Shown piece by piece: positions 35,767-58,164 of a DNA stretch of 64,000 nt. Source of the DNA: Lachnospiraceae bacterium (GTDB lineage: Bacteria; Bacillota; Clostridia; Lachnospirales; Lachnospiraceae). A model generated the notes under the pieces. It was not told where the DNA came from, made no database searches, and worked only from the letters and a program-made list of their open reading frames with translations. The translations under genes and the position numbers were made by a program. How positions within the stretch are numbered: the first letter of the stretch is position 1; every line of letters starts with the position of its first letter. Where the stretch lies: NCBI GenBank assembly GCA_017441585.1, contig JAFRWW010000041.1, positions 1 to 64,000 of the forward strand, given 5' to 3'.

Positions 35767-36111
35767 ATGAAATATGAATACGTAGCCATCTTCCTATTCT
35801 CTGTGTTCATCTCATCGATATCACAGATCATACTTAAGAAGAGCGCGCTTAAAACCTACGAAAGCAAAATAAAAGAATATCTGAATCCATATGTGATCAC
35901 GGCCTACAGCATTTTTCTCATCTCTTCCTTTATCACCATGATGGCATACAAAGGCGTCCCCCTGTCTGCAGGTCCTATCCTCGAAGCCACCGGCTACATC
36001 TGGGTGACATTACTCGGCGCTATCATATTAAAGGAAAAGGTATCTCCGGTGAAATTGTGCGGCCTGGCAGTCATAATCGCGGGGATCGTGGTGTTTAACC
36101 TGGGCTCGTGA
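35767..36111 (+). CDS. Small EamA/SMR-type four-helix membrane protein, first of a pair
   Basis: This 114-residue protein has four hydrophobic segments and the EamA-type motif ISQIILKKSA near the start with a later Glu in GPILEATGY. It is half the size of usual drug/metabolite transporters and probably pairs with the similar protein at 36250-36615. Paired small members such as ArnE/ArnF flip lipid-linked sugars, so a role with the nearby glycosyltransferases is possible. The substrate is unknown. Confidence 0.78.
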   Translation: MKYEYVAIFLFSVFISSISQIILKKSALKTYESKIKEYLNPYVITAYSIFLISSFITMMAYKGVPLSAGPILEATGYIWVTLLGAIILKEKVSPVKLCGLAVIIAGIVVFNLGS

Positions 36112-36172
36112 CCTGGGCTTCGTGATCCGTGACCTGCGATCTGCGATCTGCGATTCGTGATCCGCACTTCGT
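36102..36172. repeat. Short degenerate tandem repeats before a REP-like element
   Basis: Words such as CGTGATCCGTGACCTG, GCGATCT and GCGATTCGTGATCCG recur in tandem. The run begins at the end of the first EamA gene and is followed within about 20 bases by a REP-like element at 36193-36220. Confidence 0.7.
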
Positions 36173-36192
36173 AACCGTAATGTCCCTCGATT

Positions 36193-36220
36193 GTCATTCT
36201 GAGCGAAGCGAAGAATCTTT
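36193..36220. repeat. REP-like element
   Basis: The sequence GTCATTCTGAGCGAAGCG continues into AAGAATCTTT, the clearest consensus copy in this window. It lies between the two small transporter genes. Confidence 0.85.
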
Positions 36221-36249
36221 ATTAGATTATTCATAGAGATGTTAATCCG

Positions 36250-36615
36250 ATGAGCAATACTGAAGAAAAAAGCAAACTGAAAACCTATATCCTGCTCCAC
36301 GCCCTGCTCTTATTCTACTCCGCAGGCGGCATCTGCTCAAAGTATGCAGCAAACCAGGAACTCTTTTCCTTTAAATTCTTTCTGTTCTACGGTCTGCTCC
36401 TCTTTACCCTGTTCATCTACGCCATCTTCTGGCAGCAGGTGATCAAGGACCTGCCCGTATCCGTGGCCTATTCCAATAAAGCTATAACCGTCATCTGGGG
36501 CATGATGTGGGGCGCCCTGGTTTTCGGCGAGCACATAACCCTGTTCAATATCATAGGAGCCCTGATCATCATAGCCGGAATAATGATTGTGGTGTATGCA
36601 GATCATGGGGAATAA
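36250..36615 (+). CDS. Small EamA/SMR-type four-helix membrane protein, second of a pair
   Basis: This 121-residue protein has four hydrophobic segments and EamA-like features (SAGGICSKYA near the start; VAYSNKAITVIWGMMWGALV in helix 3; FGEH). It is probably the partner of the 114-residue protein upstream, forming a two-subunit transporter. The pair is separated by repeats, so expression may be independent. Function and substrate are unknown; ArnEF-like flipping of a lipid-linked sugar is one option. Confidence 0.78.
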   Translation: MSNTEEKSKLKTYILLHALLLFYSAGGICSKYAANQELFSFKFFLFYGLLLFTLFIYAIFWQQVIKDLPVSVAYSNKAITVIWGMMWGALVFGEHITLFNIIGALIIIAGIMIVVYADHGE

Positions 36616-39848: not shown

Positions 39849-40613
39849 ATGGATAACAGAATTCTCGGTGAAAAAATTGAATTAGATGATGATGCGGTAA
39901 AGAAATTTTTTGAAAACAGAAAACAAAAGAATCTGCCCTACAGATACAATTACGTAAATTATCAGGACGCTCATCCCGAACGTGTTTTGGATCGGGATAA
40001 GATAGAAAAAGGCCGTATCGTACCATTTTTTGAGATAGATGAAGATGATCTTGTCTTGGACATCGGATGTGGTGTCGGACGATGGGGAGATTATATAGTT
40101 CCCCGTCTTGATAAAGGCAGATATGTGGGCGTGGATTATACTGAATCTTTTGTACAGATGGCCAGGGATAATTTTGCAGATTCCGATAAAGCCGCTTTTG
40201 TAAACGGAAGCTTTCAGGAACTTACCAAAGCACTAAAGACGGACGAAGAATACAGAAAGTATGACAAGATTCTGATAAACGGTGTGCTGATGTATATTAA
40301 TGACCGGGACTTCGGACAGTGTATCAGAGAAATGGATGAGGTGCTTTTAGATGGCGGGTTTGTATATTTAAAGGAGTCCGTTGGGGTAAAAAGACGTCTT
40401 ACCTTAAATAAGTTTCATTCTGATGAACTGGAATCCGATTACAGTGTAATCTATCGATCCATAGCCGAGTATTCGGAATTGTTTACGGAATATCTTTTTT
40501 CGAAAGGATATGTGATCATCACGTGTGGTCCCACATGGGATTCGGGTTTGGATCTCGGACGGGAAACCGACAACTGGTATTGGATCATTCAAAAATCTGA
40601 AAATAAGGAATAA
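39849..40613 (+). CDS. SAM-dependent methyltransferase of the polysaccharide island
   Basis: This 254-residue class I methyltransferase carries the SAM-binding loop LDIGCGVGRWGDY (about 75) and DKILINGVLMYI as motif IV. The ATG at 39849 is chosen, though a TTG at 39822 is possible. It is the first of a run of glycan genes and its stop overlaps the next start (TAATG). The substrate is unknown, probably a sugar or lipid-linked sugar. Confidence 0.83.
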   Translation: MDNRILGEKIELDDDAVKKFFENRKQKNLPYRYNYVNYQDAHPERVLDRDKIEKGRIVPFFEIDEDDLVLDIGCGVGRWGDYIVPRLDKGRYVGVDYTESFVQMARDNFADSDKAAFVNGSFQELTKALKTDEEYRKYDKILINGVLMYINDRDFGQCIREMDEVLLDGGFVYLKESVGVKRRLTLNKFHSDELESDYSVIYRSIAEYSELFTEYLFSKGYVIITCGPTWDSGLDLGRETDNWYWIIQKSENKE

Positions 40614-41872
40614 TGCCGATCATGCAGACAGAGCATAATTTCATACTATTATATATAGATCCCGGCACGGGCAGTATGCTTTTTACCGTGGTACTGGGAC
40701 TTCTGGGCACGGTTGTGTTCTTCTTCAGGGGATTGATCCTTAAGCTGAAATCCATGGCCGGCGGCGCTAAGGGCAAAAGAGTGAATTCGGATAAATTGCC
40801 GATAGTCATATATTCCGATCATAAGCGCTATTGGAATGTTTTTAAACCCATTTGCGACGAGTTTGAAAGACGGAAGCAAAAAATAGTATATATGACCCAA
40901 TCTGATGATGATCCTGTTCTTAATGCTGGCTACGAGTATATCGAGGGAAGATATATTGGCGCCGGCAATCGTGGGTTTTCCGTACTTAATCTGTTGAATG
41001 CCGGTATCGTTTTTTCCACGACTCCGGGACTGGATGTATTACAGTGGAAGAGATCAAAATATGTGGACAGATATATCCATATTTTTCATGGCGCAAGTAA
41101 CGCCAGTTTCTATAAGATGTTTGGCATAGATTATTATGACTCTGTCCTCATATCGGGAGAATTTCAAAGAGATGTTATCAGAAAACTCGAATCGCTGAGA
41201 AACCTTCCGGAGAAAAAAATTGGATATTCCGGGATTCCTTATATGGATGATATGGTCAGGCGGCTTGAGGGTGTAAAGCATGAAGCAAATCAAAAACCTT
41301 TAGTGCTTCTTGCACCTTCCTGGGGACCGAATTCCATCCTGGTAAAGTATGGAGAAGAATTTATCGATGCACTGGTTGCCACCGGATACACTATTGTCAT
41401 TCGTCCCCATCCGCAGTCTTATACAGCAGACAAAGCGGTGCTGGAAAGATTGAAAAAAACGTATCCGGACACAGACAGTCTGAGCTGGAACAGTGACAAT
41501 GATAATTTTGATATTCTGGAAAGATCGGATATTATGATCTCCGATTATTCGGGGGTTATCCTGGACTATACTTTGGTCTTTGATAAACCGGTCATATATA
41601 CCGCTCCGGATTTTGATCGTTCGACACTTGATTGTGCATGGCTTGATGAGATACCATGGGTATTGAGGACCCTTCCTAAGATAGGGCATGAACTTAGTGA
41701 AAAAGATCTTAAGTCCATAAAATCTGTTATTGATGAGTGCCTGAACAGTGACAGATATGAAAAGGGCAGGGACGAAGTAAGAGACGAGGTGTGGCTTTGC
41801 CGGGGGACAGGTGCGGTTTCAACGGTAGATTATATCATGCGTGAATATGAGGAATTAGAGAACTTAAAATGA
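40613..41872 (+). CDS. CDP-glycerol glycerophosphotransferase family protein (TagB/TagF-like)
   Basis: This 419-residue protein has an N-terminal membrane segment after LLYIDPGTGS and then the TagB/TagF-type transferase fold: HIFHGASNASFYK, PSWGPNSI, VIRPHPQSY and the block ISDYSGVILDYTLVFDKPVI. Family members add glycerol-phosphate or similar units from CDP-activated donors to lipid-linked acceptors. The TagD gene that follows with an ATGA overlap supplies CDP-glycerol, so a glycerol-phosphate modification is likely. It is anchored at the membrane's inner face. Confidence 0.9.
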   Translation: MPIMQTEHNFILLYIDPGTGSMLFTVVLGLLGTVVFFFRGLILKLKSMAGGAKGKRVNSDKLPIVIYSDHKRYWNVFKPICDEFERRKQKIVYMTQSDDDPVLNAGYEYIEGRYIGAGNRGFSVLNLLNAGIVFSTTPGLDVLQWKRSKYVDRYIHIFHGASNASFYKMFGIDYYDSVLISGEFQRDVIRKLESLRNLPEKKIGYSGIPYMDDMVRRLEGVKHEANQKPLVLLAPSWGPNSILVKYGEEFIDALVATGYTIVIRPHPQSYTADKAVLERLKKTYPDTDSLSWNSDNDNFDILERSDIMISDYSGVILDYTLVFDKPVIYTAPDFDRSTLDCAWLDEIPWVLRTLPKIGHELSEKDLKSIKSVIDECLNSDRYEKGRDEVRDEVWLCRGTGAVSTVDYIMREYEELENLK

Positions 41873-42309
41873 AGAAGATATTGACATTCGGAGTATTTGA
41901 TTATTTTCATATCGGGCATTTAAGATTATTTGAACAGTGTAAAGAACATGCGGACTATCTTATCGTGGCCCTTCAGGATGGGGAGTACATACTGAAATCC
42001 AAGCCTGAAGCTTCTGTTCTCTATTCCACGAAAGAACGTTATGATATGATAAGTGCCCTTCGCATAGTTGATGAGGTGATAATCTATAAATTGATTGATG
42101 AGCATGTTCTTGACGGCATAGATTTCGACATCCTTGCACTGGGTGAAGATCATGTAGGGGAACGATTTGATCTTATGAGGTACTGGTGTGAACAACATGG
42201 GAAACGGGTTGTTAGATTAAAGCGTACGGTTGGTATCAGTTCGTCCGGTATAAAAGCGGGAATAAGTTGTTCTTTGGAGAATGGTAATGAAAAGTCAAGC
42301 CTAAATTAA
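41869..42309 (+). CDS. tagD: Glycerol-3-phosphate cytidylyltransferase
   Basis: This 146-residue enzyme makes CDP-glycerol from CTP and glycerol 3-phosphate. The HxGH nucleotide site is HIGHLRLF near residue 16, followed by KERYDMISALR and TVGISSSGIK, the last in place of the usual TEGISTT. The length fits the family. It is coupled by ATGA to the TagB/F-like gene. Confidence 0.92.
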   Translation: MKKILTFGVFDYFHIGHLRLFEQCKEHADYLIVALQDGEYILKSKPEASVLYSTKERYDMISALRIVDEVIIYKLIDEHVLDGIDFDILALGEDHVGERFDLMRYWCEQHGKRVVRLKRTVGISSSGIKAGISCSLENGNEKSSLN

Positions 42310-42427
42310 AAAGAATTGTTGAGTGTTGCTAATTTCCCCAAGTATTCAAAACAGCAAGGTATAATCATGAGTCCAAAGCGTTTTAATTGTATTTAACCGC
42401 TATATCAATAAAATGAAAGGAGAAGTG

Positions 42428-44776
42428 GTGTATTCTGTTATGATTGCATCATACAAGTGTATGATGTCTATATTTAATATATTTTTTATTGTTCCGTTGA
42501 ATCTTCTGTATGAAGTTATATTCACAAGTTTGTATGATGCAACCTCAAATTATGGAGTGTCGATTATACTTTTGTCATTTATTGTTAATGTACTTGCCTT
42601 GCCGCTTTATTATGAAGCGGATTTGATTCAGGACGAAGAGCGGAAAGCTAGAAGCCATATTTCAAAATGGGAACAGCATATAAAGAAGCATTTTAGAGGA
42701 GATGAGAAATATCTGATCCTCCAGACTTATTATCGTCAGTGCGGGTATCGTCCCTATTATGCGATGAGAAGTGCTCTACCCCTTTTGTTACAGATTCCTT
42801 TGTTCATTTCAGCGTATAGGTATATTTCAGGACTGAAAGAACTTAAAGGGATATCTTTTATTGGTATTTCTGATTTGGGCAGTCCTGATGGCTTGTTGCA
42901 TATAGGCTTATATTCAATAAACTTGCTTCCTGTGATTATGACGATCATCAATTTATGTTCGGCGGCAGTTTATCTTGGGGACAGAGATAAAAAAGAAAAG
43001 ATACAGTCTTGTATGATTGCATTGATTTTTTTGATTATATTATATAAGTCTCCTGCAGGATTGGTTATTTACTGGATTTTTAACCAGCTCTTCTCGGTGA
43101 TAAAAAATGTTTTTGGACGTTATTTGAAATCAAGGAATTTTGATATAAAAAATATTTTTGAGTATGTAGGAAAAAAAGTTGGAGTGGGTTGGAAAGAATT
43201 GTACCCCGTACTTTTCTTCCTTTTTACATTGTTTGTTTATGCTCCAGCAGAAATATATTTAAAAAACTCTCAAGAATTCTGGTTCACATACATTGATATG
43301 TGTTCTGTGTTTGCCGAAATCGCAATTATCGGATTGTTAGTATTGTTGTGGGTTTTATATAGATTTCCACGTTTTATAACTATTATACATGGAGTATTGT
43401 TGGGTGTTGCTCTGATGTCATTCGTCCAGGGTAATGTGTTACCTTATGATTATGGCGTGCTTGATGGAACTGCAATAGATTGGAGTAGATATGAATTTCG
43501 GTCAATATATAACACAATTATCTGGGCTCTTGTTGTTATATCGGTTATTGTTATCTTTTGTAAGAATAATAAGGCACTGTCAGTTTTGATATGGAAATTA
43601 TCATACGTAGTTTTATTTATTCAAGTGATAACACTTGCCATTGGAATGTCTGGTGTAAAAAACACAGTAAAGGATGACGTTAATGGCTATATATCCACTC
43701 AGAATGAGTTCAATATATCTTCAAAAAAGAACACAATAGTGTTAGTTCTTGATGCTTTTGATTCGGGACTTATGCAAGATCTTATCATGGAGTATCCTCA
43801 AGAGGTAGAACAAGCCCTTTGTGATTTTACATATTACCCTGATACTGTTGGAGCATCTGGGAATACATCAAATTCGGTCCCAATATATCTGAGTGGTATT
43901 GTAAATGATGCTTCGAAGCCATTGGCTGAGTATATGAATGAGGCGTATGCAAATTCTCCCTTAGTGACTGAATTGAGTTTACATGATTATAACTCCGGGT
44001 TCTATTTAACCTCGCATCTTGTAGCTCCTACTATTAAGCCGGCAGCTGATAATTATAAGGTTCAGAGGATAAAAGTAAATGGTCAGTTGGGGATAGGTGT
44101 ATTGTTTATGAAATTGACTGCCTTTAAATATATGCCGCATGTTTTGAAACCATTATTTTGGATGTATACAGGTCAGTTTAGCAATATGAAGCTTATAGAG
44201 AGTACAGATGTTTATAATACCAGCAATTTTATATTTTATGATAAAATTCAAAATGAAGGCTTTAGTTTAGATTCGGAAAAAGAGTGTTTTAGGTATATTC
44301 ATATAAATGGAACACATGTGCCATATAATATGAATGAGAATTGTGAGTATCTTCCTGATGGCGATAGTACGGAAGTTGCACAGGCAAGAGGTTGTCTTAA
44401 AATGGTAAAAATGTTTTGCGATAGTCTTAAATCATGTGGTGCTTATGATAATGCAGCAATTATTATAATGGCAGATCATGGTTGGACCAGACAGATGCAT
44501 CAAAATCCTTTGTTTATGATCAAGCAACGTGGTGATGATGGGAACTTTATGCAGTCCGAGGCATCACTTTCATTTTTGGATCTGCCAAGGTTACTATGTG
44601 ATTTATTGCATGATGATAGGGTTGATATATCCAAATATGATAGGGATAACAGGTTTTATTATGATACACAGGAAATTAAAGGTGTAGCAACTCAGATTGA
44701 ATATAGAGTTATAGGACCCGCTTATGGAGATGATTTGCAACCTACAGGAAGAGTATTCAGATGGAAATACAGATGA
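42428..44776 (+). CDS. YidC/Oxa1-like membrane domain fused to a sulfatase-type (alkaline phosphatase superfamily) domain
   Basis: This 782-residue protein starts at GTG 42428, because AAAGGAG (42416-42422) overlaps the upstream ATG at 42413. Residues about 10-235 match the YidC/Oxa1 core: YGVSIILLSFIVNVLALPL, QIPLFISAYRYISGL and SPAGLVIYWIFNQLFSVIKN. More membrane segments lie at about 258-275, 295-315, 318-335 and 360-405. From about 435 a sulfatase-like catalytic domain follows: Asp442 in LVLDAFD, Thr480 in GNTSNSVP as nucleophile, His630 in INGTHVPY and Asp683-His684 in MADHGW. The second half resembles LtaS or phosphoglycerol and phosphoethanolamine transferases, fitting the TagD context. 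The groove arginine of YidC is Asn54 here. The codons are AT-rich. It is either a transferase with a borrowed insertase fold or a new membrane polymer enzyme. Confidence 0.88.
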   Translation: MYSVMIASYKCMMSIFNIFFIVPLNLLYEVIFTSLYDATSNYGVSIILLSFIVNVLALPLYYEADLIQDEERKARSHISKWEQHIKKHFRGDEKYLILQTYYRQCGYRPYYAMRSALPLLLQIPLFISAYRYISGLKELKGISFIGISDLGSPDGLLHIGLYSINLLPVIMTIINLCSAAVYLGDRDKKEKIQSCMIALIFLIILYKSPAGLVIYWIFNQLFSVIKNVFGRYLKSRNFDIKNIFEYVGKKVGVGWKELYPVLFFLFTLFVYAPAEIYLKNSQEFWFTYIDMCSVFAEIAIIGLLVLLWVLYRFPRFITIIHGVLLGVALMSFVQGNVLPYDYGVLDGTAIDWSRYEFRSIYNTIIWALVVISVIVIFCKNNKALSVLIWKLSYVVLFIQVITLAIGMSGVKNTVKDDVNGYISTQNEFNISSKKNTIVLVLDAFDSGLMQDLIMEYPQEVEQALCDFTYYPDTVGASGNTSNSVPIYLSGIVNDASKPLAEYMNEAYANSPLVTELSLHDYNSGFYLTSHLVAPTIKPAADNYKVQRIKVNGQLGIGVLFMKLTAFKYMPHVLKPLFWMYTGQFSNMKLIESTDVYNTSNFIFYDKIQNEGFSLDSEKECFRYIHINGTHVPYNMNENCEYLPDGDSTEVAQARGCLKMVKMFCDSLKSCGAYDNAAIIIMADHGWTRQMHQNPLFMIKQRGDDGNFMQSEASLSFLDLPRLLCDLLHDDRVDISKYDRDNRFYYDTQEIKGVATQIEYRVIGPAYGDDLQPTGRVFRWKYR

Positions 44777-48890: not shown

Positions 48891-49388
48891 ATGGATGACA
48901 GTATAAGAAATATTCTGAAAAGCTCGGTACAGTATTTAAAAAATGAGAACATAGTGCTACCCCAAAAGGCTCAGGTAAACATATATCATCATTGTGGTCT
49001 TGATCGCTTTGAGAGTGTCGGAGCTGTTTTTGTCAATATAATAAATCGGGATTATTGTAAAAGCTATGTTATTATGAAACCGGGACAGGATTATCCTGTT
49101 CATTATCATAAGATAAAAAATGAAACATTTTATGTTTTGAGAGGGACGTTGAGGATTTGTGTTAATGATAAGGAATTTATTTTGTCGCCTGGTGAAATGC
49201 TTAATGTGGAACGAGGCTGTGATCACAGCTTTGGAACATCGAAAGGTTGTATATTTGAGGAAATATCGACTATGTATATTCCGAATGATTCGATATACCT
49301 GAATGATGAAATCGCAAAGAAATCGTATAATGAACGACGGACAGTACTTGATGAAAAAATTTGGGAGGAAACAGTAGCAAATGCTTGA
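48891..49388 (+). CDS. Cupin-domain protein, probable sugar-modifying enzyme
   Basis: This 165-residue protein has a cupin metal site: HYHKIKNETFYVLRGTLRI supplies two His and a Glu, and GCDHSFGT a third His. Such small cupins in glycan loci are isomerases or epimerases of keto-sugars. It lies directly before the Kdo-8-P synthase-like gene, so it may supply or alter its sugar. The ATG at 48891 is preferred to the GTG at 48873, without certainty. Confidence 0.75.
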   Translation: MDDSIRNILKSSVQYLKNENIVLPQKAQVNIYHHCGLDRFESVGAVFVNIINRDYCKSYVIMKPGQDYPVHYHKIKNETFYVLRGTLRICVNDKEFILSPGEMLNVERGCDHSFGTSKGCIFEEISTMYIPNDSIYLNDEIAKKSYNERRTVLDEKIWEETVANA

Positions 49389-50211
49389 TGTAAAGGGTTT
49401 TAGCCTGTCTGAGGCAGTGTTTATAGGCGGTGATAAAATGACTTTGATAGCAGGTCCTTGTTCTATTGAAGGCTGGGATATGTGTGATGAAGTCGCCGGA
49501 CAGATAAAGAGATTATGTGACGAACTTGATATCAATTATGTTTTTAAAGGATCTTTTGATAAAGCAAACAGGTCAAATCTTCATGCGGGCAGGGGCGTTG
49601 GCATGGATAAAGGACTTCAGATCCTGCAGGATATTAAATCCAAATATGGCGTGTGTGTCACAACAGACGTTCATGAGACCTGGCAGTGTGGTGAGACCGC
49701 CGATGTTTGTGATATTCTCCAGATACCGGCTTATTTATGTCGTCAGACAGATTTGATACTGAGCGCCGCCAAAACAGGTAGGGCCGTAAACATAAAAAAG
49801 GGACAGTTTATGGCACCTTGGAATATGGACAATGTTATAGAAAAAATGAAGTATTGCGAAAATGAAAAGATCATTTTATGTGAGCGTGGAACCACTTTTG
49901 GATACAATCGTCTTGTTGTCGATATGCAGGGGTTACTGGATATGCGAAAACTGGGATATCCTGTTTTTTTGGATGCAACCCATTCTGTTCAGCAGCCCGG
50001 AAGTGACAGAGAATTTACTTCAGGAAACAGAGAGTTTGCTCCCTACCTTATGAATGCAGGACTTGCGGTGGGAGTAGATGGTATTTTTGCTGAAGTACAT
50101 CCCGATCCGGATCATGCGGTTTCGGATGGCCCCAGTCAGATAAGACTGAGTGATTTTGGAAATATAATAAAGACTGCAGTGAAGTACGATCGGCTTACGA
50201 GGAGTATATGA
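49381..50211 (+). CDS. kdsA: 3-deoxy-D-manno-octulosonate 8-phosphate synthase-like (KdsA)
   Basis: This 276-residue enzyme condenses phosphoenolpyruvate with a sugar phosphate. Conserved blocks are LIAGPCSIEG (Cys27), FKGSFDKANRSNLHAGRG, TTDVHETWQ, DILQIPAYLCRQTDL and DATHSVQQPG. Cys27 is the residue that marks metal-dependent KdsA, where the other type has Asn. Kdo is a Gram-negative lipopolysaccharide sugar, so a copy in this Gram-positive context suggests a capsule or teichoic-acid-like use. GGGAGGAAACAG precedes the start. It overlaps the cupin gene by eight bases. Confidence 0.93.
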   Translation: MLDVKGFSLSEAVFIGGDKMTLIAGPCSIEGWDMCDEVAGQIKRLCDELDINYVFKGSFDKANRSNLHAGRGVGMDKGLQILQDIKSKYGVCVTTDVHETWQCGETADVCDILQIPAYLCRQTDLILSAAKTGRAVNIKKGQFMAPWNMDNVIEKMKYCENEKIILCERGTTFGYNRLVVDMQGLLDMRKLGYPVFLDATHSVQQPGSDREFTSGNREFAPYLMNAGLAVGVDGIFAEVHPDPDHAVSDGPSQIRLSDFGNIIKTAVKYDRLTRSI

Positions 50212-50921: not shown

Positions 50922-52068
50922 GATTCCCATAATAAAAAAGGCACAGGAAATGGGTTACTATGTTGTGACCAGCGGTAATATGCCGAATCTGCCGGGACAC
51001 AGAGTGGCGGACGAATATATAGCAGAAGACTATTCTGATGTCGATGCTATCTTGAGATTAGTAAAAGAAAATGAGATCGGAGGGATTGTGAGTTGTGCCA
51101 ATGATTTTGGCAGCATTACGGCTTCCTATGTTGGCGAAAAGATGGGGTGGACGGGGCATGATACTTATGAAAATGCTTTGTTGATGCATCATAAGGACCT
51201 TTTTAAAGAGTATTGTTATAAAAAGAATATCCCTTCGCCCAGGTCGATCATATTTGATGATTTGAATAAAGCAATTGATTATTGCTCCGAATGTACGTAT
51301 CCGGTTATCGTCAAGGCAAATGATCTGACCGGCGGAAAAGGAATAAGGCGTGCAGATAATGAGAGCGAAGCGGTGATGGCAGTAAAGAATGCCATGCGGC
51401 TATCAAGGGATAAAAAGGTTTTGATAGAGCCATTTTTGGATGGTGTTCAACAGTCGATAGTTGTTTTTCTGATCGATAAAAAAATTGCTGTACTGTCTAA
51501 CAGTAATATATATTGTATGAAAAATCCATACCTGGTCCAGGCGGAAACATATCCCGCAACCGATTTTTATCTGGTAGAAGATCAGCTGAGGAATATAATT
51601 GAAACCATGGCTTTGGATCTTAACCTTGTGGATGGTATTTTTTCGTTCCAATATATAGTTCAGAATGGAACACCATATATTCTGGAGATGATGCGCAGAT
51701 GTTTTGGAAACGAAACTTTGTTGCTTGCTGATAAAAGAACAGGATATCCTTGGGAGGAAGCTTATATCAGAGCTTCATTGGGCTTGGAGTGTTCTCACCT
51801 TAAGGCACAGGGACAGGTGGTACAGTTCTGCGGTCATTATGGTGTGATGGCTGATGAAAACGGGATTCTTGAAGATTGGGAGCTTCCTGCTGATATTGAA
51901 AAAAGGGTTTTCAAAAAGACTGTAAATATGTATTCAGGTGATATTATTACTGATCATATGAACCAGAAAATAGCGCATATTTATTTTGAATATGAAGATA
52001 TTGAAACCATGAATTCAGATATCATCAGATATAATGATCGTATAAAGGTCAGAGTAAGACCTGTTTGA
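50884..52068 (+). CDS. ATP-grasp ligase of the polysaccharide island
   Basis: This 394-residue protein has the ATP-grasp fold: an N-terminal Rossmann part (KKILVLNGTISEIP), the P-loop-like TYPVIVKANDLTGGKGIRRA, and VDGIFSFQYIVQNGTPYILEM with acidic metal ligands. Such proteins join a carboxylate to an amine with ATP. In a locus with a keto-acid sugar and an amino sugar, linking an amino acid or sugar is the likely job, but the substrates are unknown. Confidence 0.85.
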   Translation: MKKILVLNGTISEIPIIKKAQEMGYYVVTSGNMPNLPGHRVADEYIAEDYSDVDAILRLVKENEIGGIVSCANDFGSITASYVGEKMGWTGHDTYENALLMHHKDLFKEYCYKKNIPSPRSIIFDDLNKAIDYCSECTYPVIVKANDLTGGKGIRRADNESEAVMAVKNAMRLSRDKKVLIEPFLDGVQQSIVVFLIDKKIAVLSNSNIYCMKNPYLVQAETYPATDFYLVEDQLRNIIETMALDLNLVDGIFSFQYIVQNGTPYILEMMRRCFGNETLLLADKRTGYPWEEAYIRASLGLECSHLKAQGQVVQFCGHYGVMADENGILEDWELPADIEKRVFKKTVNMYSGDIITDHMNQKIAHIYFEYEDIETMNSDIIRYNDRIKVRVRPV

Positions 52069-52079
52069 AGGATGTAAGG

Positions 52080-53021
52080 ATGTATGACAGTATAAAAAAA
52101 CTGACATTTGTGATTCCGTGTTACAGATCACAGAATACAATAGAGATTGTAGTAGATGAGGTTACAGATTGTGTTGGAAAACTTGGATTTTCCGATTATG
52201 AAATCGTGCTGGTTAATGATTGCTCTCCTGATAATGTATGGTCTGTAATAAAAATGATTTCAAAGAAGAATCCCAGGGTAAAGGGAATATCCTTTGCTAA
52301 AAATTTCGGTCAACATGCAGCGCTCCTTGCAGGTTATGCCCTTGCAACCGGAGATGTGATCGTTTCCTTGGATGATGACGGACAGGTCCCTGTGGATGAG
52401 TTGAATCTATTATTAGATAAACTCTGTGAAGGGTTTGATGTTGTTTATGCTTATTATGAAGAGATACAAAGAGGATTGATCAGACGTTTTGGCACTTTTA
52501 TGGCTCTTAGAATGGGCGAGATTATGTTAGGTATACCAAAGGGGATTAAGGGAAGCAGTTTCTTTGTGGCACGTAAGTATATCGTGGATGAGATGATCAG
52601 ATATACCCATCCATACCCTTATCTTGCGGGATTGGTGTTCAGGACGACAAAAAATGTGGCTTGTGTCATGACTCATCATCGAGCCAGACTGGAGGGGAGC
52701 TCAGGCTATTCTTTTAGGGGACTTTTAAGTTTGTGGATAAACGGCTTTACTGCATTTTCAGTAAAGCCGCTTGAAATAGGAACATATTGTGGGGTAGTAG
52801 CTGCAGCGATGGGGTTTATTTTCGCGGTGGTCACTATTGTCCGTAAGATATTGAATCCTGCAATGGTGGCAGGATGGGCTTCGGTTATTTCTGTTCTTCT
52901 TGTAATAGGTGGGATCATTCTTATTATGCTTGGACTTATTGGTGAGTACGTCGGCAGAATATATATATGTATAAATGATGCACCACAGTATGTCATTAAG
53001 GAAGAAATCGGAGGAATATAA
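52080..53021 (+). CDS. GT2 family glycosyltransferase, CsbB/GtrB/ArnC-like
   Basis: This 313-residue protein has a GT-A domain (LTFVIPCYRSQNTIEIV, then SLDDDGQVP with the DxD metal site, then the KGSSFFV segment) and two C-terminal membrane helices (about 230-300). Enzymes of this type transfer a sugar onto undecaprenyl phosphate. The next gene is YfhO-like. CsbB and YfhO together glycosylate teichoic acids in Bacillus, so the pair probably decorates a wall polymer here. The ATG at 52080 has AAGGA upstream. Its stop overlaps the next ATG. Confidence 0.9.
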   Translation: MYDSIKKLTFVIPCYRSQNTIEIVVDEVTDCVGKLGFSDYEIVLVNDCSPDNVWSVIKMISKKNPRVKGISFAKNFGQHAALLAGYALATGDVIVSLDDDGQVPVDELNLLLDKLCEGFDVVYAYYEEIQRGLIRRFGTFMALRMGEIMLGIPKGIKGSSFFVARKYIVDEMIRYTHPYPYLAGLVFRTTKNVACVMTHHRARLEGSSGYSFRGLLSLWINGFTAFSVKPLEIGTYCGVVAAAMGFIFAVVTIVRKILNPAMVAGWASVISVLLVIGGIILIMLGLIGEYVGRIYICINDAPQYVIKEEIGGI

Positions 53022-55786
53022 TGGCTTTATTTAAGAGTGAAAAAAAGAAGGAATTGACACAGAGACAGTGTAGGGCACTATACTTGTTTCTGTCATTCGC
53101 TTTGCCTGCATTTGTTATGCTTATTGCGCTTGCAGGGTTAAAGATTGCTCCTTTTGGAAGTGATACATTGCTATTGGCAGATGCAAATGCTTTCTATATA
53201 AATACCTTAAGTTATGCTGCCCGAATGTTCAGGGGGATGGAAAGTGCATTTTATTCTTTTGAAAAAGGTCTTGGCGGTAATATGATGGGGCATTTATGTG
53301 GTATACTCGTTACTCCCTTTGGCTCGTTGTTATCTCTTGGAAAAATTGGCGATTATCCCATAATATTTACTTTTATATCTGTACTTAATTTAAGTTTGGG
53401 TGGGCTGACTATGTATATATTTTTAGCGGATATATATGGTCATAAACGCAGTAATCTCATTTTTTCCACATCATATGCTCTTATGGGATTTAATGTAGCA
53501 AATGTATTTCAGGCGGTTTTCTTTTGCGCACCGCCTGTTGTGCCTATCATGGCTATGGGTCTCAGGCGAATTATGAAAGGCAAAAGTCCTGCAATATATA
53601 TACTTTCGATAGCTTACGGAGTTGCTGTAAATCCCTTTTTTGGCTTTGTCCTTTGTATGGCATCTCTTATATTTTTTGGGGTGGGAATATGGCAGAGCGC
53701 ATTAGATAAAGCGCAGGTGAAACGGTTAGTGTTGAAATATTTAGTTGCGTCAGTGTGTGGTGGTATGATGGTGGCAGTTATGTGGCTGCCGGGCTTTCTT
53801 TCTCTCAGAGGAGGCAGGATCGATCAGCTGAGTCTTGGTGATTTTTCCATGTGGGAAAATATGCCTTTTATAGAGATCGGAGCAAAATTGTTTACCGGAG
53901 CAAACAGTGTGGAAGAGGAGGTACATGGTCTTCCTAATATATTTGTTGGAATACTTCCTGTTATTTTGGGGATATTGTATTTTCGAAATCAAAAGGTTAG
54001 ATCCAGAGATAAAGTGGCTGCCGGGGTTTTGTTGTGCATATATCTTGCCTCATTTTGGCTTAATTCACTGAATCTTATCATGCATGCCGGAGCTACTACA
54101 AACTGGTTTAACTATAGACATTCATATGTTTTTTCGTTTATTTTGCTGGCGGTGGCGGCAGAGTCGTGGACATATCTGGGAGAATTAACAGGAGAGGAAG
54201 TAAAGAAAGCTCTTGTTGTCCTTGTTATAGCGACGATAATCATTTTTTCTAAAAAGTATGAGTTTATCCAGGCGGGGACGATGGTGCTTGATCTGGTTAT
54301 TTTAGCGTTTATCCTGTTTGTATGGAAAATGCATAAAAAAGACCCTGAAAAAAATGACAGGAGAAATTTTGAGATCGCTGTAATAGAGTTGGTTTGTTTT
54401 AACCTTCTTATGAATTATAGCATATGTACGCATAAGATCGAAGGATATCCCGGTTGGGAAATGACTATAGAGGATTACAGGGATGTGGTGAATAATGTAA
54501 GCCCTCTGGTAGAGAGTGCTAAGGCAAAGGGAGATGATTTTTACAGAATAGAGATCAATGAGCAGAGAGCCTGGAATACCGGAAATGATCCTATGCTTTA
54601 CGGGTACGATGGAGTGGGACATGGAGGATCCAACGGCAGGGATTTCGAGAGAATTCAGCTGTGTACTCTTGGAATACCCTGGGATGATATGAGAAGCTGT
54701 TATTCATCCGGTGTTACGCCTGCTACGGATTCGCTTTTGGGCCTTCGATATATAGTGGCTAAAGCAGATCTTACGGAAGAAAAGGGATACGAAAAGGTGG
54801 GCAGCATGGGTGAGTGGGGCCTCTATAAAAATGATCACGCATTGGCACCAGTTTTCCTGGCGGACAAAAAAGTTAAGGACGTACATACTAATTTTGTAAA
54901 TATTTTCGATAATCTTAATCGTACTTGGAAGGGGATAAGCGGTACGGACAAAGATGTTTTTATAATGGAGGATGATATTACCTTTGAGGCCCATAGTTCT
55001 GTTTCAACAGGACCTGTTAAGCGAGATGATGCAAAGGAGAGGGTTATATTTAATGCGATTGGTGGAAAAGGCATATTGGAACAGGATGAAGAAAATGATG
55101 ATGATGGATCGTTAAAGAATAATGTAAATGTTGATAGTGTTAGTGTTTTGAATAAGCCTGCTGACGATGAGGCGTACATTTCATATTCCTTGGAGGCAAA
55201 ATATGATGGCCCGATATATATATATGACAGAAGTTCTTTGAGGCAGGATTCGGGTTGTCCCATTTCTACGGTACAGTACATAGGTACATATCATAAGGGC
55301 GATACTGTTGTCGGGTATTTCCCTATGAGTGATGGGATCATAACGCAAAAAAAACTGGATAGTATTGCGGGATATTTCAGAGCTGCATACCTGCAGACAG
55401 ATCGGTTATGGGAATTGAACGACGGAATAAATGAACAAAAGGTGGATTTTACACGAGTGAAAGATACACTTCTAACGGGGAGTTTTGATTCGGCGTCAGA
55501 TCAGGTTCTGATGTTTACTATTCCCTATGACGAAGGGTGGACGCTCACTATAGACGGACAGAATGCTGAAATCGAGAAAACTATAGATCTTTTTATGACA
55601 GCCGATATCCCCATGGGGTCTCATTCATTTGAATTGAAGTATACACCGCCGGGGCTCTTGACGGGTAAGATTTTGTCTGTATTTTCTATATTGTTTTTTG
55701 TGATTTACATAATATATGATGTAAAAAAGAGAAAACCAACCGATGATCCTATCGAAAAAACTGATGAAGAAGGCATTATTTTGTGA
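53021..55786 (+). CDS. YfhO-family membrane glycosyltransferase
   Basis: This 921-residue protein has about 12 membrane segments over the first 450 residues, a large extracellular region (about 460-880), a last membrane helix (about 890) and a short cytoplasmic tail. It is a GT-C type enzyme of the YfhO family, beginning LALPAFVMLIALAGLKIAPFG with an acidic loop after. YfhO proteins move a sugar from a lipid carrier to a teichoic acid outside the cell. It shares an operon with the CsbB-like gene. The extracellular part includes a Val-Asp-Ser-Val-Ser-Val sequence like the large galactanase. Confidence 0.88.
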   Translation: MALFKSEKKKELTQRQCRALYLFLSFALPAFVMLIALAGLKIAPFGSDTLLLADANAFYINTLSYAARMFRGMESAFYSFEKGLGGNMMGHLCGILVTPFGSLLSLGKIGDYPIIFTFISVLNLSLGGLTMYIFLADIYGHKRSNLIFSTSYALMGFNVANVFQAVFFCAPPVVPIMAMGLRRIMKGKSPAIYILSIAYGVAVNPFFGFVLCMASLIFFGVGIWQSALDKAQVKRLVLKYLVASVCGGMMVAVMWLPGFLSLRGGRIDQLSLGDFSMWENMPFIEIGAKLFTGANSVEEEVHGLPNIFVGILPVILGILYFRNQKVRSRDKVAAGVLLCIYLASFWLNSLNLIMHAGATTNWFNYRHSYVFSFILLAVAAESWTYLGELTGEEVKKALVVLVIATIIIFSKKYEFIQAGTMVLDLVILAFILFVWKMHKKDPEKNDRRNFEIAVIELVCFNLLMNYSICTHKIEGYPGWEMTIEDYRDVVNNVSPLVESAKAKGDDFYRIEINEQRAWNTGNDPMLYGYDGVGHGGSNGRDFERIQLCTLGIPWDDMRSCYSSGVTPATDSLLGLRYIVAKADLTEEKGYEKVGSMGEWGLYKNDHALAPVFLADKKVKDVHTNFVNIFDNLNRTWKGISGTDKDVFIMEDDITFEAHSSVSTGPVKRDDAKERVIFNAIGGKGILEQDEENDDDGSLKNNVNVDSVSVLNKPADDEAYISYSLEAKYDGPIYIYDRSSLRQDSGCPISTVQYIGTYHKGDTVVGYFPMSDGIITQKKLDSIAGYFRAAYLQTDRLWELNDGINEQKVDFTRVKDTLLTGSFDSASDQVLMFTIPYDEGWTLTIDGQNAEIEKTIDLFMTADIPMGSHSFELKYTPPGLLTGKILSVFSILFFVIYIIYDVKKRKPTDDPIEKTDEEGIIL

Positions 55787-57269: not shown

Positions 57270-57677
57270 GTGAAAGGAAATAATGATGGCTTTTCCCTGG
57301 TAGAACTGATCATAGTAATTGCTATTATGGCCGTTATTGTTGGTATATTGGCTCCTCAGTTTATTAAATATGTGGAACAGTCCAGAGAGTCAAAGGATCT
57401 GCAGAATATAGAGGAAATGAAAAAAGCAGTGGAAGCATATTCCACAGATCATGAACAAAAGGGCATTCATGTGGTAGAGGCCACGGGCGCGGTGCTTAAG
57501 TATGTGCTGGGAGATGGTGGCAGTCTTCAGCCGTATGGTGTGGAGACTCAGATTACACAGAGTTCTAGCAATAAGATAGTACTTAAGTGGCAATATGAAG
57601 ATTATATGTGGAGTTTAGTGTCCGATCAGTGCTTTGCCAATGGGGCCTGGTATGATGCAAAGGGCAGTAAGAGATGA
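57270..57677 (+). CDS. Type IV pilin-like protein
   Basis: This 135-residue protein has a short leader and the prepilin cut site G|FSLVELIIVIAIMA, then a hydrophobic helix and a soluble domain. The N-terminal 40 or so residues are almost the same as in the next pilin (ILAPQFIKYVEQSRES), while the C-terminal halves differ. The GTG start follows AAAGGAG at a long spacing. It may be a major or minor pilin; the PilD gene is close by. Confidence 0.9.
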   Translation: MKGNNDGFSLVELIIVIAIMAVIVGILAPQFIKYVEQSRESKDLQNIEEMKKAVEAYSTDHEQKGIHVVEATGAVLKYVLGDGGSLQPYGVETQITQSSSNKIVLKWQYEDYMWSLVSDQCFANGAWYDAKGSKR

Positions 57678-57741: not shown

Positions 57742-58164
57742 ATGAAAAAGATGAATAACAAAGGTTTCTCACTTGTAGAGCTGATTATCGTTATTGCTAT
57801 CATGGCAATCCTGGTTGGTGTACTTGCACCTCAGTTCATTAAGTATGTAGAGCAGTCTAGAGAGTCTGCAGATCTTCAGACCATCGAGGAGATCAAGACT
57901 GCAATTGAGACTTGGACCGCTGATACCGGTGCTGCTACAGGAACGACAACTGTAACCGCTACTGGTGCTGCAAAGACTGCTGTAGTAGCAGGTACTGCTG
58001 CTGGTCAGCTCGCAGATTATGGCGTGTCTGATTCAACCAGTCTTAAGTCTGAGAGAGTAATCGTTACATGGACATATGATCATGCTTCATATAAGTGGTC
58101 TCTTACAAATGATGGTATGACCGGTGGTAACGCTCTTTACACTGCTTCTGGTAGCAAGAAGTGA
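57742..58164 (+). CDS. pilA: Type IV pilin, probable major pilin
   Basis: This 140-residue protein has the cut site KG|FSLVELIIVIAIMA with a conserved Glu at +5. The soluble part is rich in Ala, Thr and Gly (TGAATGTTTVTATGAAKTA), as in abundant pilins. A strong AAAGGAGAG and a leader of about 60 bases precede it. It ends with YTASGSKK, like the upstream pilin's end. Confidence 0.93.
   Translation: MKKMNNKGFSLVELIIVIAIMAILVGVLAPQFIKYVEQSRESADLQTIEEIKTAIETWTADTGAATGTTTVTATGAAKTAVVAGTAAGQLADYGVSDSTSLKSERVIVTWTYDHASYKWSLTNDGMTGGNALYTASGSKK

Follow-up and report, generated by a model that had tools for sequence, protein, structure and literature searches.

YidC is known as a protein insertase that can also scramble lipids, as liposome experiments and simulations have shown. 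We know of no established cellular role for YidC lipid scrambling. In liposomes, purified E. coli YidC scrambles lipids, and in simulation all tested members of the Oxa1 family do so (PMC10491306). A paper on the Lic (phosphocholine) and Pnt (aminoethylphosphonate) pathways names LicD-like phosphotransferases and makes no mention of YidC or sulfatases (PMC6697681).

We analyzed a stretch of 64,000 nucleotides (the window) from a Lachnospiraceae bacterium, in which a single gene joins a YidC/Oxa1-type domain to a catalytic domain of the sulfatase fold. It is well supported that the YidC-type domain belongs to a conserved three-part set, in which it is attached to one of two specific transferases. 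The active site of one of these transferases is expected to lie inside the cell and that of the other outside. Among the openly licensed papers searched, we found no description of the fusion or of the exchange of the YidC domain between the two partners, in keeping with the sequence-only reading of this DNA, which knew of no described enzyme of this design. All the domains are known; what appears new is that they are combined, together with the use of the YidC fold that this implies, and a categorically new function is possible.

The fusion protein and its two halves

The fusion gene lies at 42428..44776 on the forward (+) strand, as do all the features in this section, and encodes 782 residues from a GTG at 42428. 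Its frame can be extended to an ATG at 42413, and the resulting open reading frame (42413-44776, 787 residues) encodes both halves without interruption. GTG 42428 is the likelier start, because AAAGGAG (42416-42422) lies upstream of it at normal spacing. We nevertheless count residues from ATG 42413, which puts our numbers five above those of the sequence-only reading. The fusion of YidC/Oxa1-like and sulfatase-type domains proposed there is real, as seen from the single frame, a match to Pfam 60KD_IMP and fold matches to both halves.

The YidC/Oxa1-type five-helix domain occupies 42470..43132 (residues 20-240), as judged by Pfam, fold and an alignment of 22 relatives. Besides its five core helices, the YidC part has a helix at the N-terminus and, on the cytoplasmic side, a helical hairpin at about residues 70-109. 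Residues 47-234 score 77.7 bits against Pfam 60KD_IMP (PF02096; E 1.3e-21, cut-off 35), and the NCBIfam YidC model TIGR03592 (cut-off 84.3 bits) scored 82.5 bits on the protein and 87.2 in a six-frame search. Solved chains matched by sequence include YidCs at about 7e-9, and residues 11-239 of the model of the window protein match the fold of B. halodurans YidC (3wo7) with a Z of 17.1. Positions of the YidC part that are invariant in the fusions include S55, P64, Y66, D70, Q73, Y220, W221 and N224.

The positive groove residue of YidC, an arginine, has been termed strictly conserved, and described YidCs are able to function without it provided that the groove remains hydrophilic (PMC8920935). 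At the groove position (N59 in the window protein, 42587..42589), which is positive in described YidCs, the 72 aligned fusions carry N (67), Q (4) or S (1), and a positive charge is absent. Does the change from Arg to Asn prove that insertase function was lost? Ordinary YidCs of the same bacteria carry R, K, Y or N at this position, so we dropped that argument. The groove residue does not separate the fused family from the ordinary YidCs of this clade.

Five further membrane helices (43196..43657, about residues 262-415, placed by hydropathy and the helices of the model) come after the cytoplasmic C-terminus of the YidC part, and the catalytic domain is therefore expected outside. By Pfam and fold comparison, this alkaline-phosphatase-superfamily (sulfatase-fold) domain, predicted to be extracellular, covers 43700..44617 (residues 430-735). 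The LtaS-like layout of the second half, five helices and then an extracellular alkaline-phosphatase-fold domain, is borne out by prediction from hydropathy, model and fold; it is also PbgA/EptA-like.

The complete-looking active site stood up to comparison across the family. Metal ligand D447 (43751..43753), nucleophile T485 (43865..43867), H635 of the GTHVPY motif (44315..44317) and metal ligands D688-H689 (44474..44479) are invariant in 72 of 72 full-length fusions. Set against the catalytic set of S. aureus LtaS (E255, T300, D475 and H476), the fusions keep Thr, Asp and His and replace Glu by Asp (72/72). D447 and T485 match the E255 and T300 positions by motif only, D688-H689 match D475-H476 by motif and also by alignment, and H635 aligns with the histidine of the LtaS motif NHYPF.

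Is the catalytic half a sulfatase? Pfam Sulfatase (PF00884) scored 15.6 bits on residues 440-690, under its cut-off of 25, and several relatives exceed that cut-off (25.6-40.7 bits). The formylglycine sulfatase maturation motif C/S-x-P-x-R is not present in the window protein, which reads T485-S-N-S-V, and Thr occupies the nucleophile position in all stand-alone relatives as well as in the fusions. Because the motif is absent, we consider the catalytic half, from its sequence, more likely to be a Thr-dependent phosphotransferase or phosphodiesterase than a sulfatase.

Structure prediction, a check that the sequence-only reading had proposed, gave the YidC fold noted above and a sulfatase fold for the second half (residues 437-787, Z about 15). 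Mean AlphaFold2 pLDDT was 73 for the window protein, mostly 80-97 in its YidC part, and 88 for a typical family member from Lachnospiraceae bacterium XBD2001. PbgA (6xlp) and MCR-1 (9nww) stand at the head of the Foldseek lists of the two models, and the two-part match to PbgA/YejM from residue 257 on has an rmsd of 12.9, so the parts are set at a different angle. By sequence, the second half matched Listeria LtaS among solved chains (0.0017), and a profile of the stand-alone relatives together with the window protein ranked S. aureus LtaS top among solved structures (E 3.4e-8). In fold comparison LtaS, PbgA, MCR and sulfatases are tied and, at the level of the models, do not discriminate between substrates.

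Spread of the family, its partner and its neighborhood

The family was searched for in 397 genomes of the Lachnospiraceae type, and 33 match at the hit threshold of E 1e-20 or better. By match ranges and open-frame lengths, 17 of the 33, the window's genome counted, have YidC-fused proteins and 17 have stand-alone sulfatase-fold relatives; one genome, G025, has both. The family is rare phylum-wide, with matches in 3 of 398 genomes. In a scan of GTDB contigs, at least 558 stretches were found to encode the YidC domain of the fused family. The 80 loci among the matches listed come from Lachnospiraceae, Oscillospiraceae, Ruminococcaceae and other Clostridia, with a single locus each from Atopobiaceae and Eggerthellaceae; many are from rumen or gut, some of the records are named as isolates, such as Butyrivibrio sp. 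INlla21 (L118) and Lachnospiraceae bacterium MA2020 (L139), and 76 complete fusions (at least 780 residues) were recovered from them. The alignment-based scan found these relatives, and a scan of genome contigs with a single protein as the query found none. No member of the family was found in the viral contigs scanned. With more than 70 complete fusions from independent genomes, a chance fusion or frameshift artifact is ruled out. The sequence-only reading had allowed for a rare accident confined to one species, and the same fusion proved to be widespread.

A tree of YidC domains places the fused family and the window protein in one group (support 100), long-branched and apart from the ordinary YidCs. 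We also observed YidC domains on TagF-like enzymes, and these form a separate group (support 98) placed among the ordinary YidCs; the supports here and below are SH-aLRT values from a short search, and the trees are unrooted. These placements suggest that the YidC domain was joined to a transferase in two separate fusions, YidC-sulfatase-fold and YidC-TagF. When the catalytic domains are placed in a tree, the members of the main fused family group together (100) and the window protein falls on the side of the stand-alone relatives (100). Homology between the two catalytic lineages extends across the helices and the catalytic domain with the window sequence excluded (hhalign E 4.1e-26). From its sequence, the window protein may be either an early-branching fusion or a recombinant. 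We rejected domain shuffling as a required reading: early branching fits equally, the trees are unrooted, and support for stand-alone monophyly is only 63. Seven loci (L084, L110, L118, L134, L135, L145 and L160) carry at least two paralogous fusion genes, adjacent or around one TagF-like gene, perhaps serving different acceptors.

The partner gene in the window, a TagF-like CDP-alditol phosphotransferase (40613..41872, + strand), lies two genes upstream of the fusion. It was recognized by Pfam Glyphos_transf (46.8 bits, cut-off 22.1), by co-occurrence, and by a YIDPGTGSMLF N-terminal segment and an RPHP motif. Neighbor clustering placed a TagF-like gene beside the fusion at many loci: it adjoins 47 of the 72 flanked fusions and lies within two genes of 52. 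Across the 397 genomes, 30 have both the sulfatase-fold part and the TagF-like part, 3 have the former alone, 2 the latter alone and 362 neither; in 2 of the 3 (G255 and G256), a contig ends right beside the module. The partners co-occur even where they are unlinked, as in G007, which has fusions on contigs C3 and C6 and TagF-like genes on C1 and C45.

A sulfatase-fold protein that carries the YidC domain is paired with a short TagF-like enzyme, which has a YIDPGTGSM-type N-terminus. Beside a stand-alone sulfatase-fold protein, the TagF-like neighbor has about 630-710 residues and carries a YidC domain at its N-terminus; at locus L077, for example, one chain matches both 60KD_IMP (E 9e-35) and Glyphos_transf (E 4e-7). 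Pfam or profile searches together with the YidC tree yielded eight such YidC-TagF proteins. The YIDPG motif is present in 64 of 65 type A and 0 of 8 type B TagF-like proteins, and the RPHP motif in 72 of 73. A PF02096 scan found a second match, in an open frame of TagF-fusion size (467-729 aa), in 11 of 11 stand-alone-type genomes, one of them cut by a contig end. Because the stand-alone-type genomes carry YidC on the TagF-like enzyme, we conclude that there is one YidC domain per pair, on either partner. Hence the possibility that relatives keep the two halves as separate, unlinked genes was realized only in part: stand-alone sulfatase-fold relatives exist, but the YidC domain there is on the partner enzyme, which is usually adjacent. 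Sixteen stand-alone-type genomes have both genes, and in 11 of these the two lie about 5 kb apart or less. One TagF-like protein (L033:12535-14700, genome G039) has a YIDPG start and an extra C-terminal stretch of about 300 residues of no recognized kind.

Perhaps the fusion is the sole YidC of its host? All scanned fusion-bearing genomes of 90% completeness or more contain an ordinary YidC as well, with an open frame of about 360-460 residues. No other YidC was found in the window's own assembly (G000), and this genome and its congeners G001-G003 (81-85% complete) have no ordinary yidC over the cut-off and no rnpA. We rejected the idea, since all four congeneric assemblies are incomplete and lack rnpA too. 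It is likelier that the yidC-rnpA region is missing or diverged in these four genomes than that the fusion is their only YidC.

In the window, the fusion gene comes directly after a TagD-like gene and ahead of sugar-modification genes, as the sequence-only reading had placed it. The TagD-like gene (41869..42309, + strand) encodes a glycerol-phosphate-type cytidylyltransferase (Pfam PF01467, E 1e-13); its best NCBIfam model is TIGR01518, at 67.5 bits against a cut-off of 165.4. Elsewhere, the activation genes near fusions encode choline/ethanolamine kinase, PEP mutase carrying a cytidylyltransferase domain, phosphonopyruvate decarboxylase, and a MobA-like nucleotidyltransferase that occurs either by itself or as one protein with the kinase or with an aminotransferase. 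A choline-kinase/nucleotidyltransferase gene is also present at the stand-alone-type loci L077, L080 and L082. We compared fusion loci with 20 arbitrarily placed 14-kb control regions, taken from related genomes rather than the same ones, the genomes being related by descent and not independent: a TagF-like gene was present at 35 of 48 fusion loci and in 0 of 20 controls (Fisher P 7e-9), and activation genes at 23 of 48 and in 0 of 20 (Fisher P 5e-5). This gene content suggests CDP- or CMP-activated groups of several kinds, among them glycerol-phosphate, choline and aminoethylphosphonate.

Other genes of the window deserve mention. Two EamA-type half-flippase genes, an ArnC-like glycosyltransferase and a YfhO protein are encoded at 35767-36615 and 52065-55786; by analogy, this set may charge, flip and transfer a sugar, with the same inside-flip-outside logic as the module proposed below. 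A complete KDO-8-phosphate synthase of the KdsA type (49381-50211; TIGR01362, 366 bits, cut-off 314) lies in the surface-polymer cluster and suggests a Kdo-like sugar in a polymer of a Lachnospiraceae-type Gram-positive. Two near-identical type IV pilin-like genes stand in tandem (57270-57677 and 57742-58164) beside an apparent pilus assembly cluster.

A proposed surface-polymer module and its rivals

We propose, with a probability of roughly 45%, a three-part surface-polymer module composed of a cytoplasmic TagF-like transferase, a YidC-fold domain for docking and lipid crossing, and an extracellular Thr-dependent phosphotransferase. The nucleotidyltransferase would make CDP- or CMP-X, with X being glycerol-phosphate in the window and phosphocholine or aminoethylphosphonate at other loci. 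The TagF-like enzyme would then move the X-phospho group to a membrane-bound acceptor at the inner face. The YidC-fold domain would dock the TagF-like enzyme and let the lipid-linked intermediate cross the membrane, and the five-helix/alkaline-phosphatase half would transfer the group to an outer surface polymer via a covalent intermediate on T485. We infer the lipid crossing, the identity of X, the acceptor and the physical complex; the lipid-crossing role is proposed by analogy, since YidC scrambles phospholipids in liposomes. Counting against this mechanism, about half of the loci are without activation genes. The extracellular domain may instead take an ordinary phospholipid (phosphatidylglycerol or phosphatidylethanolamine) as its donor, unlinked to any CDP pathway. 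A bolder claim, which we hold tentatively and with less confidence than the module itself, is that a bacterial protein of the Oxa1 superfamily gave up protein insertion to serve as the membrane-crossing element of a surface-polymer machine. Having arisen through two or more separate fusions, it would hand a lipid-linked phospho- or phosphono-group over from the TagF-like enzyme inside to the extracellular phosphotransferase.

The strongest rival is that the YidC-fold domain does no more than act as a scaffold or folding helper. It would hold the TagF-like enzyme and the extracellular transferase together and aid helix assembly while moving no lipid, the two enzymes acting at different steps on one polymer. 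That the domain is found on either partner, replacing the YIDPGTGSM-type N-terminus of the TagF-like enzyme, is in line with such a role, as is a groove residue that is not a conserved charge. However, the full insertase fold, with many invariant positions, was kept in two separate fusions, which a mere anchor leaves unexplained; we regard the scaffold as unlikely, though a serious contender.

A weaker rival is the LtaS-like polymerase suggested by the sequence-only reading, in which glycerol-phosphate from phosphatidylglycerol would be built into extracellular poly(glycerol-phosphate), with the YidC part feeding the substrate. The shared five-helix and extracellular layout, the top rank of S. 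aureus LtaS among solved structures in the profile search, the Thr, His and Asp-His positions common to both and the adjoining TagD-like gene all fit this idea. Yet LtaS systems have no need of a cytoplasmic TagF-like enzyme, and here such an enzyme is the constant partner; other loci encode donor genes of the CDP-choline or CMP-aminoethylphosphonate type. The window motifs HINGTHVPY and TSNSVP, moreover, also resemble those of EptA/MCR phosphoethanolamine transferases, and the fold matches fail to single out LtaS. Because of the TagF-like partner and of CDP/CMP genes of several kinds, transfer of a substituent fits better than a phosphatidylglycerol-fed LtaS reaction. The polymerase is possible but not favored, and we judge it improbable; the accompanying suggestion, that a lipid-linked substrate is moved by the YidC fold, may reasonably be inferred.

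Least probable of all is a YidC part that serves as a working insertase or chaperone for the fused transferase or other wall enzymes, linked for delivery: homology and fold to YidC are clear and YidC may work without the arginine if the groove is hydrophilic (PMC8920935), but a normal YidC accompanies the fusion in every scanned genome at least 90% complete, the fused domains branch long and apart from ordinary YidCs, and the exchange is with one specific transferase rather than with varied membrane proteins.

The three-part module thus remains our preferred reading. With a YidC-type domain bound to two lipid- or polymer-phosphate transferases through fusion and near-perfect co-occurrence, the family lets a non-protein role of the fold be tested directly. 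The module also points to a route by which glycerol-phosphate, choline or phosphonate groups would be added to the surface of gut and rumen Clostridia, where they may matter for host immunity and phage recognition. For these proteins, the label "membrane protein insertase YidC" from annotation pipelines would mislead.

Comparison with described systems

The YidC/Oxa1/Alb3 insertases (B. subtilis SpoIIIJ, E. coli YidC and B. halodurans YidC2) share the five-helix core and cytoplasmic hairpin with the fusion (77.7 bits, fold Z 17). Unlike them, the fusion carries an enzyme, belongs to its own long-branched group, has N, Q or S at the groove position and occurs besides an ordinary YidC. LtaS and LtaP have the same five helices followed by an extracellular alkaline-phosphatase-fold domain with a Thr nucleophile, His and Asp-His, and, of the solved structures, come closest to the second half in sequence. 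The fusion differs from them in having Asp for Glu as the first metal ligand, a YidC domain or a YidC-bearing partner, and the TagF-like link. EptA/MCR and PbgA/YejM show the same two-part layout, but they are without a YidC domain, have a Gram-negative lipid A role and share only about 10-13% sequence identity.

The TagF-like partner shares Glyphos_transf and the RPHP motif with the CDP-alditol phosphotransferases TagF, TarL and TagB, and differs from these in its form, which is either short and single-domain, with an N-terminus of the YIDPGTGSM type, or extended by a fused YidC domain. As in the Lic and Pnt pathways (PMC6697681), genes for choline kinase, a MobA-like protein, PEP mutase and phosphonopyruvate decarboxylase lie near many fusions, whereas the transfer module here is made up of the TagF-like and YidC/sulfatase-fold proteins.
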